The notes under the pieces were generated by a model that was not told the DNA's origin, made no database searches, and worked only from the letters and a program-made list of their open reading frames with translations. 64,000 bases of DNA. Source: Nymphaea colorata. Its lineage: Eukaryota; Streptophyta; Magnoliopsida; Nymphaeales; Nymphaeaceae. A program made the translations under genes and the position numbers. The stretch lies in the NCBI RefSeq assembly GCF_008831285.2, contig NC_045139.1:4190704-4254703 (forward strand), in the 5' to 3' direction. This document shows, piece by piece, positions 13,079 to 40,515 of this stretch. Numbering within the stretch: position 1 is the first letter of the stretch; each line of letters starts with the position of its first letter.

Positions 13079-14057
13079 CTAAAACCACGGATCTGTGGTC
13101 AGAACACCTCCCCTAGTCTGTCAAAAATCCCTGGTTTTTACAACGCAACACGCATTTGATATTCTCAATTCAGAAATCCACTGTTTGTTTAAGCTGTGGA
13201 TTTACCCAAATGCGAATCCCAGATCCAAGGCTATCAAACACGACAGGAGTTTGACATGGTTGTATAATTACGCTAGTTCTTATCTTGATCTTATTGACCA
13301 ACAAAAGATGCAAAAATATTTGCAGTAAATTGAGAAAGAATTATCTATAATGCACATACCTAATCCTGTCTTAGCATTCACTGACTTGGAATTATTCCTG
13401 GTCCCAGTAGCGAAGACCACAAAATGAAGTGCTTTTCTTCTCCAATCATTGATTTAAAAAAGATTAACAATTGAAGCAACAGGAAAGAACAAACTTAAAC
13501 TTATAAGATAATGTTTGAAAGTTTACATTCCGATGCTGTTCATGGATTTTACTAATTTCAGGGGAAACTTTAACCTCTTAGAAAATAAGTCTCTATATTT
13601 TGACTCTCGCCCAGGGTGCCGGGGCCCTCGGACTTAATGTGTTGGACCTTTTTGGGCTCTCCTTCCTTTTGCCGTTTGGTTTGTAATTATTTATTATTTG
13701 TTCTTAATAAATAGGGATGGGAGCCCTCTCTTCTAGCAGGTTTGCATTGGAAAGTTCAAAGGACTTTTACACCGAGGCTTCGGCTTTTTACTAAGGTGAA
13801 ACTAGTTTAAACCTAGTTATATGTGTCATATTGGTGCATAAATTTTCGTTAGAAAGTATGGATAATGACTAAAATACCTTTAGTTCATACTCGAAAGAGA
13901 ATTTTTTGCAAAGACAAAAATGAAAATGAAAAAAAAAAAGTAAAAAGATTATACAAAACATTTTTTAATAAATTACCAAAATGTCCTTCCTTCCTTTATT
14001 GTGTATGCCCCTAGGCAGGCATGCAACTTTCTCTGCATTGAGGTGCACGAAAAAGTT

Positions 14058-14212
14058 GTGCATGGAAGGCTTAATGACCAGAATACCTCTCTTCAAGAAA
14101 AAAAAAACCCAGACAAGACCAATTAAAAAAGTTAAAAGTTAAAAAAAAAAAACATTTGTTTTGAAAAATCTCCATACTATCCCAACTTTTCCTATAAAAA
14201 AGTTAAAATTTT

Positions 14213-14267
<55 letters not shown>

Positions 14268-14453
14268 AATTATTATATTACACCAACTTCCACTTGTGCA
14301 TGGAAGGCTTAATGACCAGAATACCACTCTTCAACACAAGGAAAAAAAAACCCAGACAAGACCAATTAAAAAAGTTAAAAGCTAAAAAAAAAACATTTGT
14401 TTTGAAAAATCTCCATACTATCCCAACTTTTCCTATAAAAAAGTTAAAATTTT

Positions 14454-14490
<37 letters not shown>

Positions 14491-28163: not shown

Positions 28164-28799
28164 CAGGGGGCGGAGCCAGACATTTTTTGTCGCAGGTGCC
28201 ACCAAAACTATAGTTTCAAAATTTTAATAAGAGTCGAAATAAAAATTTTCAAAATATCTTTTATATGTATTAAACTAAATTTTTTTAAATTTAAATATAA
28301 GTTTTTAAAGTTTTTAAAATATGAAGGGGAGGCCAAGGCCCCTGCCTAGGGATGTCAACGGATAGCATTCGCATCAGATATATCTTTAATTATATCTGTT
28401 TTTTCGGATATTCACATATTTGGGTTTGAATTTAGATTCGAATAAAGAGAAGTCATATCTGAATCCGAAATCCGATTTTACAATCCGAATCCGATTTATA
28501 TATTTATATCTGAATCTGAATTTTGAACCCAATTTTGCCAATTTTTAAAATTTAATAGCATTAGATACGGGATATTTGTCTAAACATGAATCCCGGAATC
28601 GGATCGGATATTTATGTATATCTAAATCTGAATTCGATCGGATGCCATTTATTAAATCCGAATCCAATCCAGTTTCTTAATCGAATATTAAATTTTTTTT
28701 CATATCCGATTTTTTCGAATTGGATCGGTCGGATATCCGATTCAAATCGAATATATTGACATCCCTATCCCTGCCGACCCTCCCTTCCATCTACCCCTG
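28164..28799. mobile_element. H2 hAT-like element with an H1 element nested inside
   Basis: The outer element begins caggggg (28164) and ends ctacccctg (28799). It is flanked by gtttgaca (28156-28163) and gtttgata (28800-28807), an 8-bp target duplication with one mismatch. Inside it, the H1 element 28347-28767 is flanked by cccctgcc (28339-28346) and tccctgcc (28768-28775), again 7 of 8 matching. This is a clear nested insertion of two hAT-type non-autonomous elements. The right end of the pair is also seen at 47279-47316 in block B. Confidence 0.7.
28347..28767. mobile_element. hAT-type MITE, family H1 copy 2 (nested)
   Basis: Ends tagggatgtcaac and attgacatcccta form the terminal inverted repeat. 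The body is 421 bp with ATTCGGATAT words throughout, flanked by a 7/8 matching 8-bp duplication. It shares ends and body with 11734-12163, 31022-31267 and 49582-50008. Confidence 0.8.
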
Positions 28800-34068: not shown

Positions 34069-34368
34069 TTAGCAGTGGGGATACTTCAGGCCACAAGACG
34101 AAGCAATCCTACGCCCAGAAGAAGAGTACAAGTACGATTTGTATGTAGAGTTTTTCGCGTAAGTGCAGAAGCAAGACGTCTGAGACTTGAGCTCTCTGCA
34201 GCAAGACGAAGTCGGCTTCTCACCTTCATATGCAGACAAGCAGGAACTTAGTGTTGAGAGGCTACAGTTCTTGGTCGACTTCTTGGTCGAGCTAGGTTGG
34301 ACACTGCCAATAAGCAGAACCAAGACTAAGAAGCATACGACCGAAGAAGCCCTGAGCTTCAGCCCCAT
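34069..34368 (-). CDS. Type-2 nsLTP, gene 5 (block A)
   Basis: Encodes 99 residues. The start MGLKLRASSVVCFLVLVLLI aligns with the starts of all other - strand copies, although the frame is open further upstream. The signal peptide ends around QPSST. Cysteines: C35-x7-C43-x12-C56C57-x8-C66-F-C68-x23-C92-x6-C99. It carries a four-residue insertion just before the mature domain (STKKSTKN, where gene 8 has STKN), produced by a 12-bp tandem duplication of ttcttggtcga at 34269-34292. It is otherwise nearly identical to gene 8, its duplication partner in block C. The predicted product is secreted and lipid-binding. A TATA box lies at 34444-34450 and an AATAAG signal about 40 bp past the stop. Confidence 0.9.
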   Translation of the reverse strand: MGLKLRASSVVCFLVLVLLIGSVQPSSTKKSTKNCSLSTLSSCLSAYEGEKPTSSCCRELKSQTSCFCTYAKNSTYKSYLYSSSGRRIASSCGLKYPHC

Positions 34369-34443
34369 CTTCAGAAACAAGCAGATGATGCAAGAAAAGA
34401 AGTGGGAGCAGGGAGTGAATTCTGCTAGTGCTTTCCCATTACA

Positions 34444-34450
34444 ATTTATA
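34444..34450 (-). promoter_or_regulatory. TATA box of nsLTP2 gene 5
   Basis: ATTTATA on +, TATAAAT on - in CCTATAAATTGTAATGG, 76 bp upstream of the start codon. The same 17-mer context occurs in block C. Confidence 0.65.
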
Positions 34451-34699
34451 GGCTCCAATTCATAGCCACAATGATGACATGTGTCACGATTGAACCAAGC
34501 AGTGCGGAGATACATGAGAGCTGGTGTCGGCCACTGCCCATAGAAAAATTCATTGAAAGAATCGAAATTAATATGCAACAACTCAAAAGATACATCAGGT
34601 GTCCACAGCAGACTTGGGCTGGTGACTTAAGTGCCAAAAAATCCTAGCTCCACCACTGGAAGCAAGGCATACATATATAACTACAACTAAAGATTCTCA

Positions 34700-37222: not shown

Positions 37223-37689
37223 CGTGTGCCTGTGACTGAACTTTGCAGTGTAGAGGGAGGGAACGGTTCGGGTTCTTGTGAGACCCTAAATGGGAGTGGA
37301 TCCATGAGTTTTCCTTTTCCGTATATGGATTTAAAATCAAATCCAAACTGCAACAAGATCGGATCAAATTTTCGCGAAATAGCGGGTCTCAGTGCATGGA
37401 CCATCGGGTGGATCAGATTCTGTCCATTTAGATGTATACGTGATTTGTTGTCCGAACCACTTGATTTAGATCCAAAGAGCCTACGTTTGTTTGTTTCAGA
37501 TCTTTACGTTCAGACCAAATGATTTGAGATCCTTGAGGTCCGACTTATAATAATAAATGTTGAAAATTATGACTGATTTAAATTGATGGCTTGTTTGTGA
37601 TTATAAAAACAGCAGGCTACCTTTGTGGCTGGATTAGTCTTATTTCCTTTTATTTATATAATTGAAAACCATCTGCAAAGAATATTTTG

Positions 37690-37693
<4 letters not shown>

Positions 37694-37769
<76 letters not shown>

Positions 37770-38030
37770 GTACGATTTGTAACAAATGGTGTTGGTGTGT
37801 CCAGAACCTTCCAAAACAGATTGCCTGCTCGCACGTTAATCTCTTTTAAATCACAGCCATTATGGCTGTTCAAAAGAGAGACGTCTCTCATTCTATCAAA
37901 AGTGTTCAAAAGCAAGAATGAGAGACGTCTCTCTTTTGAACAACCATAATGGCTGTGATTTAAAAGAGATTAACGTGCGAGCAGGCAATCTGTTTTGGAA
38001 GGTTCTGGACACATTTGTTACAAATCGTAC

Positions 38031-38074
<44 letters not shown>
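37694..38074. mobile_element. Foldback element between two (TA)n tracts
   Basis: A (TA)n tract (37694-37766) is followed by a left arm (37766-37893, starting tttggtacgatttgtaac), a 22-bp spacer, and a right arm (37916-38034) that is its reverse complement. A second (TA)n tract (38035-38074) closes the structure. The arms differ by one 9-bp indel and one substitution (GGCTGTTC against GGTTGTTC). It is non-coding. The layout resembles MITE families reported in plants that sit inside TA microsatellites, but it is an almost complete palindrome. Confidence 0.8.
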
Positions 38075-38078
<4 letters not shown>

Positions 38079-40263
38079 TTTGAAAAATAATATATGTTGG
38101 AAATTTTTGGTGGGTAATATTGATTGATTTGTCTTTTTTCAACAAATTGATTTGTCTTTTTTCAACAATCCATTAGGATGGATTGCCTTCATTAACTCTG
38201 AACACTGACAATGATATTATTAAACAAATAACGTTTTATACACTAACTCAAGTTCATGACTATAGTTGGAAGTTAGCATGGTAGCATGGCTAAAGTACTT
38301 TTTTGTTTTCTTTTATTATTTTCATTACTTGTAAACAATTCTATTGTTAATATTTGAAGATGCTGCATTTGAATCATTTCAGCGCATTGTTCAGAAAAAA
38401 CGTTTTCTTTTTAAAAAAAGGAACTCGTTTTATACGTAAAAAAATAAGCCAAAAAAAAAAGAACTGCAAAAACACCACTCTTTTATAAAACTTCAAAACG
38501 AAAATATTCTCCTCAAGAACGTGAAAAAGAAATATAGCTTTTTCGTGTTTTATGGCATTCTTTTACTACTGCACTTTTTGCTTTTAATTTTTTAAATTTA
38601 TTTTTTCGTTTAATTTTTCTCAAGATTTTCTTGAGAAAACAGCAGCTTTGCCTTATTGCACACTTACCTTTTAAAACCCTTAAAAAAAAGTTTGTGACAG
38701 TGTAAAACGATAACAGCTGGCTACTCTATACCTCTTAGAAGTTATGTTTTCTTGTACAACCCAACCGGCTACTCTATGTTATGTTTGAGTGTCCTTGATA
38801 AAAAAAAATATAATGCAAATTTTCCCTCACTATTTCACTGACAATTTATCTGAAAAAAGAAGTTGAAGACGTTATGAAAAGGGTTGAAAATAAATTAATT
38901 TTCATTACATGTTTATTCTATTAAACTAAAATTCTCAATAAGATGATAATGACTAAGATGACCTTTTATGGAAAAAATAGACTCTTCCTATGAGAACAAA
39001 AGGGACAAATTTTTTAGAATAACTAAAATACTTGTATGACAGCCGCTCGCGAAAGGTCAAGTACTAGTGCAAAGTGGATATGACATGCAAATCAAAGTTG
39101 ATTTTTTGCAATCTTTTTCTCTTTCCTTTGAAGGTATTTTTTTGTTTTACCAAAGGTAATTTCGCATTTCATAAAGCGGGTTGGACACGCCGAGCAGGGT
39201 GTGGACACTTCATAGGGGGAATAACCGGACATGGGTCTGGGTTTGTAAAGCAGGTTGGTCCGCTAATTTTGTAGAAACTGAGATCAAATGAGACCTGTAT
39301 CTGTTTGATTGGCGTGGGCAGTGGCCTACGCCAGCCTCTAAGATCTTGCATTGTGATTAAGAAATAGAATAGGATTCAAATTTAAAAAATGACATCTAAT
39401 TCAATTTGGATTTGGGTATACATAAATATCCAATCAGATTTGGATCAGACTTAGTTTTAAATAAATATTATATATCCAATGCCCTTACTTGGAAATTGGT
39501 CAAATTCAGTTCCAATTTCGGATTCGAATATGAATGTAAAAATCAAATTCAAATAGGATTTTTATTGTGAAATTGGGATTCAGATTCGGATCCTGATATG
39601 ACTTTTTTTTGTTCGTATTTGAATCCAAATTCAAATATGAATATGTAAATATCTGAAAAAATGGATACGGTTAAGAGTATATTTGATCCAAATCTAATCT
39701 ATTGTCATCCCTATCCATAGATCTGACCTGACATGCTTTTGCTAATGTAGCATAGGATACATGGTTAAATTTATGGTTCATCAAACTAAGGATCTTAGAT
39801 CAGATCTAGATTCATAGTGAACTTTTCATTTTATTTTTTTACATTGAGAAAGGGTTGAGGGTGTATTCATAAATGCTTGGCAGAAATCAGACGGAGAAAG
39901 ATGGAGTGAAAAACATGTCCCTCAAGAATGTAGCTTTGCCTTCAAAATGACATTTGGAATTTATAGAGAATTCTTGGTGCCAAATCTGGATCAGGTGCAG
40001 ATCTGGGTTCGAGAAAGCGCAGCTTCCAAATCATGCTGCCCCCACAGTAAGGATCCAATCCATTTGCCTGCTCATAAAAAATTGTTTAAAAATAATTTTT
40101 TTTAAAAAAGTGATAGAACATTGGTAAGTTATTGGTCACAATCAGATATCATATATGGGGCTTCAATGATAATCCACTGATGCTGTATGCTCACTCTACC
40201 TTACGACACTTCTATGGAAACATCCCAAAAGAAGTGTTTATTTCATTAATATAAAACTAAAAT

Positions 40264-40515
40264 TTCCAAATGAATGCTTGATAGTTCACTTTATTTTAAA
40301 ACATGTTTCCATAAAAAATGAATGCTCTGGGCGCGGGTTTTCATTTTTAAAATCAATTTAAAACATTCGAATTCAATTTTTACGCTCAAAAAATCGAAAT
40401 ATAGAAAAATAGTTATTTAAGCATGTTTCAACATCTTTTAGTTAATTAATTGTAATTTATTGAGTGCGAGAAACATTTTTTAAAATAAAGTGAACTATCA
40501 AGCATTCATTTGGAA
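40264..40515. mobile_element. MITE with 46-bp terminal inverted repeats
   Basis: The left arm 40264-40310 (ttccaaatgaatgcttgata and onward) and the right arm 40470-40515 are reverse complements, broken only near the inner end where right-arm A/T runs differ. The element is 252 bp and non-coding. A target duplication is not obvious. Confidence 0.75.

Follow-up and report, generated by a model that had tools for sequence, protein, structure and literature searches.

A foldback between TA tracts in Nymphaea colorata that looks more like a one-off inverted duplication than a member of a transposon family

Does a long palindrome set between TA microsatellites belong to a family of mobile elements that target such repeats, or did it form where it stands? 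The question is raised by one locus of Nymphaea colorata, located in a stretch of 64,000 nucleotides (the window; C2:4190704-4254703) that looks like plant nuclear DNA, as inferred from its genes. The locus consists, in this order, of a (TA)n tract, a 128-nt arm, a 20-nt spacer, a 119-nt arm, and an (AT)n tract, with 267 bp between the TA tracts (Table 1). A sequence-only reading had described a near-perfect, symmetric foldback between TA tracts with a 22-bp spacer; the foldback was confirmed, with arms of 128 and 119 nt, and the spacer was corrected to 20 nt. Alignment of the arms revealed identity at 118 of 119 bases, with a single mismatch, plus one 9-nt indel, exactly the two differences that had been reported. 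This degree of identity upholds the young look attributed to the structure. The ratio 1/119 gives a rough age of 0.6 My, a figure that presupposes arms evolving without conversion. The substitution rate used is 7e-9 per site per year.

Table 1. Positions of the foldback, its parts, and its flanks in the window
Feature	Positions	Strand	Remarks
Left flank	37557-37693	.	Matches nothing else in the genome at E <= 0.001; homology to F not detectable
Left (TA)n tract	37694-37766	.	36.5 units
Left arm	37767-37894	+	128 nt; equal to outside copies at both arm differences
Piece A	37777-37835	+	Arm positions 11-69; 53/59 identical to C8:17579102-17579160
Piece B	37842-37908	+	Arm positions 76-142, 14 nt of it in spacer
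Short internal palindromes ACAGCCATTATGGCTGT and GAGAGACGTCTCTC, near turn	37853-37889	.	
Spacer (loop)	37895-37914	.	20 nt; first 14 nt alignable to the single-armed sequences (2 mismatches, 1 gap)
Right arm	37915-38033	-	119-nt inverted copy; one base and 9-nt deletion versus left arm and outside copies
Right (AT)n tract	38034-38079	.	20 perfect TA units in 38035-38074
Right flank start, interspersed repeat family F	38071-38128	+	Begins at TATAAATATTTG

Scanning of the window for complexity-filtered 18-mer inverted seeds located at most 600 bp apart identified two sites only, the foldback and positions 40264 to 40515, and when the window was simulated 50 times with a first-order Markov model, no simulation contained seeds of the same type. 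Thus, the foldback is not a chance arrangement. The site at 40264 to 40515 is MITE-like, with 46-nt terminal inverted repeats (98%), and a related sequence is present at L012:8128-8340. The RNA fold computed for positions 37767 to 38036 reached -209.7 kcal/mol, versus a mean of -59.1 (SD, 4.9) for 200 shuffles (z = -30.7), indicating that a hairpin longer than 110 bp, as previously suggested, could indeed form.

The copy number of the structure was investigated by searching its own genome (408 Mb in 783 contigs) with a similarity search that passes over very common words, a gap that pattern searches cover in part. The foldback was detected only at its own place (four candidates, all scored), the other matches being to parts of the arms. 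A pattern search with the terminal 21-mer, allowing up to three mismatches, returned 22 matches, namely, the two arms (exact) and 20 sites with exactly three mismatches, and the reversed control returned 51, i.e., more than the real pattern. There was no second locus in the own genome matching this 21-mer with two or fewer mismatches. The genome searches revealed no multicopy family sharing the ends of the foldback and no larger element with those ends, no second copy or empty site was found within the window, and the viral contigs contained no match to the terminal 21-mer. At the sensitivity of the searches used, the foldback is therefore a single locus, as is the case for local inverted duplications, and it lacks the multicopy family sharing termini that is expected of MuTAnT-type elements. 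Many copies of the arm inside TA repeats, the outcome proposed in the sequence-only reading as support for a mobile element, were not observed; one copy of this foldback was found, and its end was unmatched elsewhere at up to two mismatches. The opposite outcome, a single-copy arm, largely holds: one copy of the foldback was found, although pieces of the arm recur elsewhere.

The layout has close precedents among (TA)n-associated Mutator-like elements. MuTAnT from Medicago is a foldback with a 292-bp founder and 144-bp near-identical terminal inverted repeats (TIRs), present in 218 copies mostly in (TA)n tracts; these tracts have a mean of 11.7 units, and 9-nt target site duplications appear where the site is not a perfect (TA)n (PMC4486113). 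The Nymphaea foldback is similar to MuTAnT in its size, its long inverted arms, which are nearly identical (118/119) and separated by only a short spacer (20 nt), its internal sub-repeats, and the presence of (TA)n on both sides (36.5 and 20 units). The sequence-only reading had pointed to the lack of the short TIRs usual for MITEs, but long arms do not argue against the TA-targeting class, in view of the 144-bp TIRs of MuTAnT itself. Any 9- to 10-bp target site duplication at the foldback is unreadable because it would be hidden by the TA tracts. In contrast to MuTAnT, no family of the foldback was seen here, and its ends are not repeated elsewhere at up to two mismatches. The SaTar elements of guayule and rice (PMC5907723) and the Ac-mMITEs of pineapple (PMC8449440) are also (TA)n-associated Mutator-like families. 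They similarly display short inverted-repeat elements inside (TA)n tracts, but they form large families, often clustered, whereas a single copy was found here. Thus, the likeness to TA-targeting MITEs holds for the layout and breaks down for the copy number.

The arms are, judging from sequence matches, a mosaic of two low-copy pieces, A and B, each single-armed elsewhere and together covering almost the whole arm. The copy number of piece A was deduced from genome similarity searches and that of piece B also from a 32-mer pattern search. In addition to the copy on C8, the inner 37 nt of piece A (arm positions 33 to 69) match C2:4382666-4382702 at 36 of 37 positions; the outside copies of A are thus on the contig of the foldback and on C8. 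Piece B shares an exact run of 56 nt with two single-armed copies, C2:4382936-4383003 and C2:4433108-4433175, located 154 and 204 kb from the foldback. The 32-mer search for B, with up to three mismatches, gave four matches at three loci of the own genome, all on C2, and none with the control. In L009 (the region of C2 at 4.383 Mb), A is followed by B in the same order and orientation as in the arm, at a distance of 233 bp. A simple intron between them was considered and rejected, as no GT was seen by eye at the A side. L009 and L010 (the region at 4.433 Mb) have in common a 148-bp segment (L009:4376-4523 and L010:4348-4495; 99.3% identical) that overruns B on both sides, and apart from the small palindromes of B, no self-complementary arm was found in the stretches tested at the outside B loci. 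Since the segment overruns B and the loci are not foldbacks there, the outside B loci do not read as remnants of the palindrome. Single-armed sequence that could be parental thus exists, as expected of local inverted duplications. The 148-bp segment reads as a small patch that moved recently. The other longest blocks common to L009 and L010 are about 85 to 92.5% identical and occupy other relative positions. Just before A, at L009:4101-4154 and nearby, short repeats match contig C782 at many places; C782 contains many short repeats, the matches reaching base 609,645, and the C782-like repeats in L009 are perhaps nuclear-inserted mitochondrial DNA.

Comparison of the arms with the outside copies provided the polarity of the two arm differences. 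Both outside copies of B carry the base of the left arm at the mismatch, and the C8 copy of A is in the left-arm state for the 9-nt indel. The right arm thus looks derived at two of two differences, two being all that the sequences offer. Given this polarity and the alignable start of the spacer, the left arm and the spacer look original, and the right arm looks like their inverted copy. The portion of B located in the arm is identical to the outside copies, yet the 14 bases located in the spacer show two mismatches and a gap, a divergence that an inverted duplication leaves unexplained.

The flanks were compared with the interspersed repeat family F. Matches extending across the start point of the window copy were obtained for at least five F copies among 42 listed matches, with 40 of the 65 candidates scored, and the three copies inspected in sequence, on C2, C8, and C3, run uninterrupted through TATAAATATTTG and continue upstream; the F copy next to the foldback therefore starts abruptly. 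Alignment of the final 100 nt on the left side with the upstream part of F in L048, L049, and L052 gave scores matched or exceeded by 487, 211, and 433 of 500 shuffles, respectively, in contrast to none of 500 for the right flank at each of the three loci. Since the right flank is F and the left flank is not, the palindrome lies where two sequences meet that do not adjoin each other in F. Fragmentary F-related matches are common in the genome, and F may have been truncated before the foldback formed. Farther out, the left-flank piece 37253-37556 matches C2:4444917-4445210 (minus strand), and, on the right, 38404-38703 corresponds to C2:4457479-4457771 (minus strand) and 38746-39274 matches L012. 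The paralogous pieces at C2:4.37-4.47 Mb were considered as an empty site and rejected, since they are not collinear and none extends across the palindrome. A match of positions 38001 to 38082 to L012:2044-2130 was likewise discarded, as it is carried by the TA tract. The Pfam profile LTP_2 (probable lipid transfer) scored above its cutoff in 3 of the 10 open frames of the window that were scanned, the nearest being 34069-34626 on the minus strand, 3.1 kb to the left of the foldback. Positions 28300 to 61500 of the window display complex tandem and shuffled duplications with lipid transfer protein frames, and further paralogous pieces of this region are found, in scrambled order, at C2:4.37-4.47 Mb. 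At positions 14056 to 14488, there are about two tandem copies of a 241-bp unit with a TA tract at its end.

Other foldbacks were sought in a nonrandom set of 34 sequences (258,292 bases), in which the foldback of the window was known beforehand and from which overlapping loci were left out. Two further foldbacks of comparable grade were found within 237 kb on C2. The first, C2:4464732-4465235 (L036:7032-7535), is an unrelated palindrome of 504 bp without TA flanks, in which the first 247 arm bases are identical and for which the genome search returned only the locus itself. The second, C2:4375692-4376102 (L012:7193-7603), is 411 bp long, 96% self-complementary, and also without TA flanks, and contains an internal motif whose repeats alternate in orientation. 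It has a relative on C9 (L066, C9:21252150-21252700), in which one arm runs from its middle straight into the outer end of its partner arm, on the same strand, this end abutting a short TA tract. The C9 sequence reads like a deleted copy of the C2 foldback. Four random 10-kb stretches (40 kb; 4 of 80 drawn positions) contained no foldback of such grade. Weaker foldbacks in the 34 sequences were L010:4488-4750 (76%), L059:1442-1766 (73%, TA on one side), L010:4284-4739 (88%, 50 nt), and the 40264-40515 site of the window (98%, 46 nt).

The foldback is more suggestive of a single, rather recent accident of copying than of membership in a jumping-gene family. The account that we favor, and that we consider just about probable, is a single in situ inverted duplication generated by fold-back or template-switch repair, in which the TA tract was copied too. 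The starting point would be a single-armed mosaic, (TA)n followed by A and B, that already stood at the site. During repair of a break or of a fork, the nascent strand would have folded back or switched template near the small palindromes of B. Copying would then have proceeded back through B' and A' into part of the TA tract, and the product would have been joined to repeat F via TA/TATA microhomology, with loss of the upstream part of F. Because TA would be part of the copied unit, symmetric TA tracts would not require a TA-targeting transposase. Piece B and the spacer, folded as DNA, gave -9.4 kcal/mol, and none of 200 shuffles was as good. In yeast, foldback templated insertions at DNA breaks have been explained by microhomology-guided fold-back or template switching (PMC11724301). 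The Nymphaea foldback is similar in that the inverted copy adjoins its template, but the local events in yeast are mostly about 5 to 34 bp, in comparison to about 120 nt plus a TA tract (PMC11724301). Young MIRNA and siRNA loci of plants are also known to derive from local inverted duplications, and, as in those cases, a near-perfect foldback is present at a single locus and arm-like sequence stands single elsewhere (PMC1790633). Unlike in those cases, the parental pieces are at most candidate protein-coding genes, the flanks are TA tracts, and the hairpin RNA is a prediction (PMC1790633). Several observations count against the one-off duplication: the layout is that of a MuTAnT-type foldback Mutator-like element (MULE), the C9 relative resembling a deleted copy lies beside a TA tract, no paralogous single-arm site corresponding to the foldback position was found in the own genome, nor an empty one, and F was maybe truncated earlier. 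The A-B junction is 233 bp shorter than in L009, so that an extra step, the joining of A to B, would be needed.

The best-surviving alternative is a nonautonomous foldback Mutator-like MITE (MuTAnT-, TAFT-, or SaTar-like) that inserted in a TA microsatellite, of which this is now the sole copy and whose arms took up the host pieces A and B. We regard this reading as possible but rather doubtful. The 267-bp size, the long near-identical arms, the internal sub-palindromes, and the TA tracts on both sides all suit such an element, as do the precedent of MuTAnT, the occurrence of a lipid transfer protein frame about 3 kb away, and maize elements reported to have short TA targets expanding on insertion (PMC5907723). 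The C9 sequence, if read as the deleted form of a foldback lying next to a short TA tract, favors this reading, and a low-copy family of TA-inserting foldbacks may exist in the Nymphaea genome. These points are opposed by the lack, in the genome searched, of a second copy or of a further locus sharing this end within two mismatches, by arms consisting almost wholly of low-copy sequence that is single-armed elsewhere, by flanks that are not contiguous parts of F, and by the L036 foldback, which has no TA flanks and for which only its own locus was retrieved.

A broader proposal can be made from the presence of three unrelated near-perfect foldbacks in a duplication-rich stretch of 237 kb. This stretch could be a hot spot of in-place fold-back repair, in which the TA tracts would be repair join sites, the products would serve as hairpin RNA genes acting on dispersed single-armed sources, and TA-flanked foldback "MITEs" would start without a transposase and become mobile later. 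We consider this proposal unlikely.

A role as an active hairpin locus of recent, MIRNA-like or siRNA type, transcribed and silencing loci that carry A or B, would be compatible with an origin by one-off inverted duplication and is, in our estimate, quite improbable. The very stable predicted fold, the exact 56-nt match to two other loci, and the contribution of recent inverted duplications to plant MIRNA genes (PMC1790633) are in line with such a role. One survey traced 68.5% of the MITE-derived miRNAs of eudicots to Mutator MITEs (PMC12550479). Against it, the locus is known from its sequence and a computed fold, the B loci are only putative genes, and the window has no Rfam match at gathering cutoffs. 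A transcript of the hairpin would offer Dicer-like enzymes a substrate, from which siRNAs with a 56-nt match to the two B loci could arise. Library or read errors can create near-perfect palindromes, but a false palindrome of this origin is hardly credible here, as the arms differ at one base and by a 9-nt indel, the outside copies side with the left arm, the flanks are unlike each other, and the start of the spacer aligns with outside copies.

Together, these results describe a foldback of a known kind, either a local inverted duplication or a foldback element of rare occurrence, whose setting between TA tracts is unusual. It has the look of a TA-targeting MITE and fails the copy number test, and a local inverted duplication fits better, which calls for caution in classifying foldbacks from layout alone. 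With a left arm resembling its source and a right arm that has changed, the locus offers an example of how a first palindrome may arise, such palindromes being the raw material for foldback transposons and young MIRNA genes.
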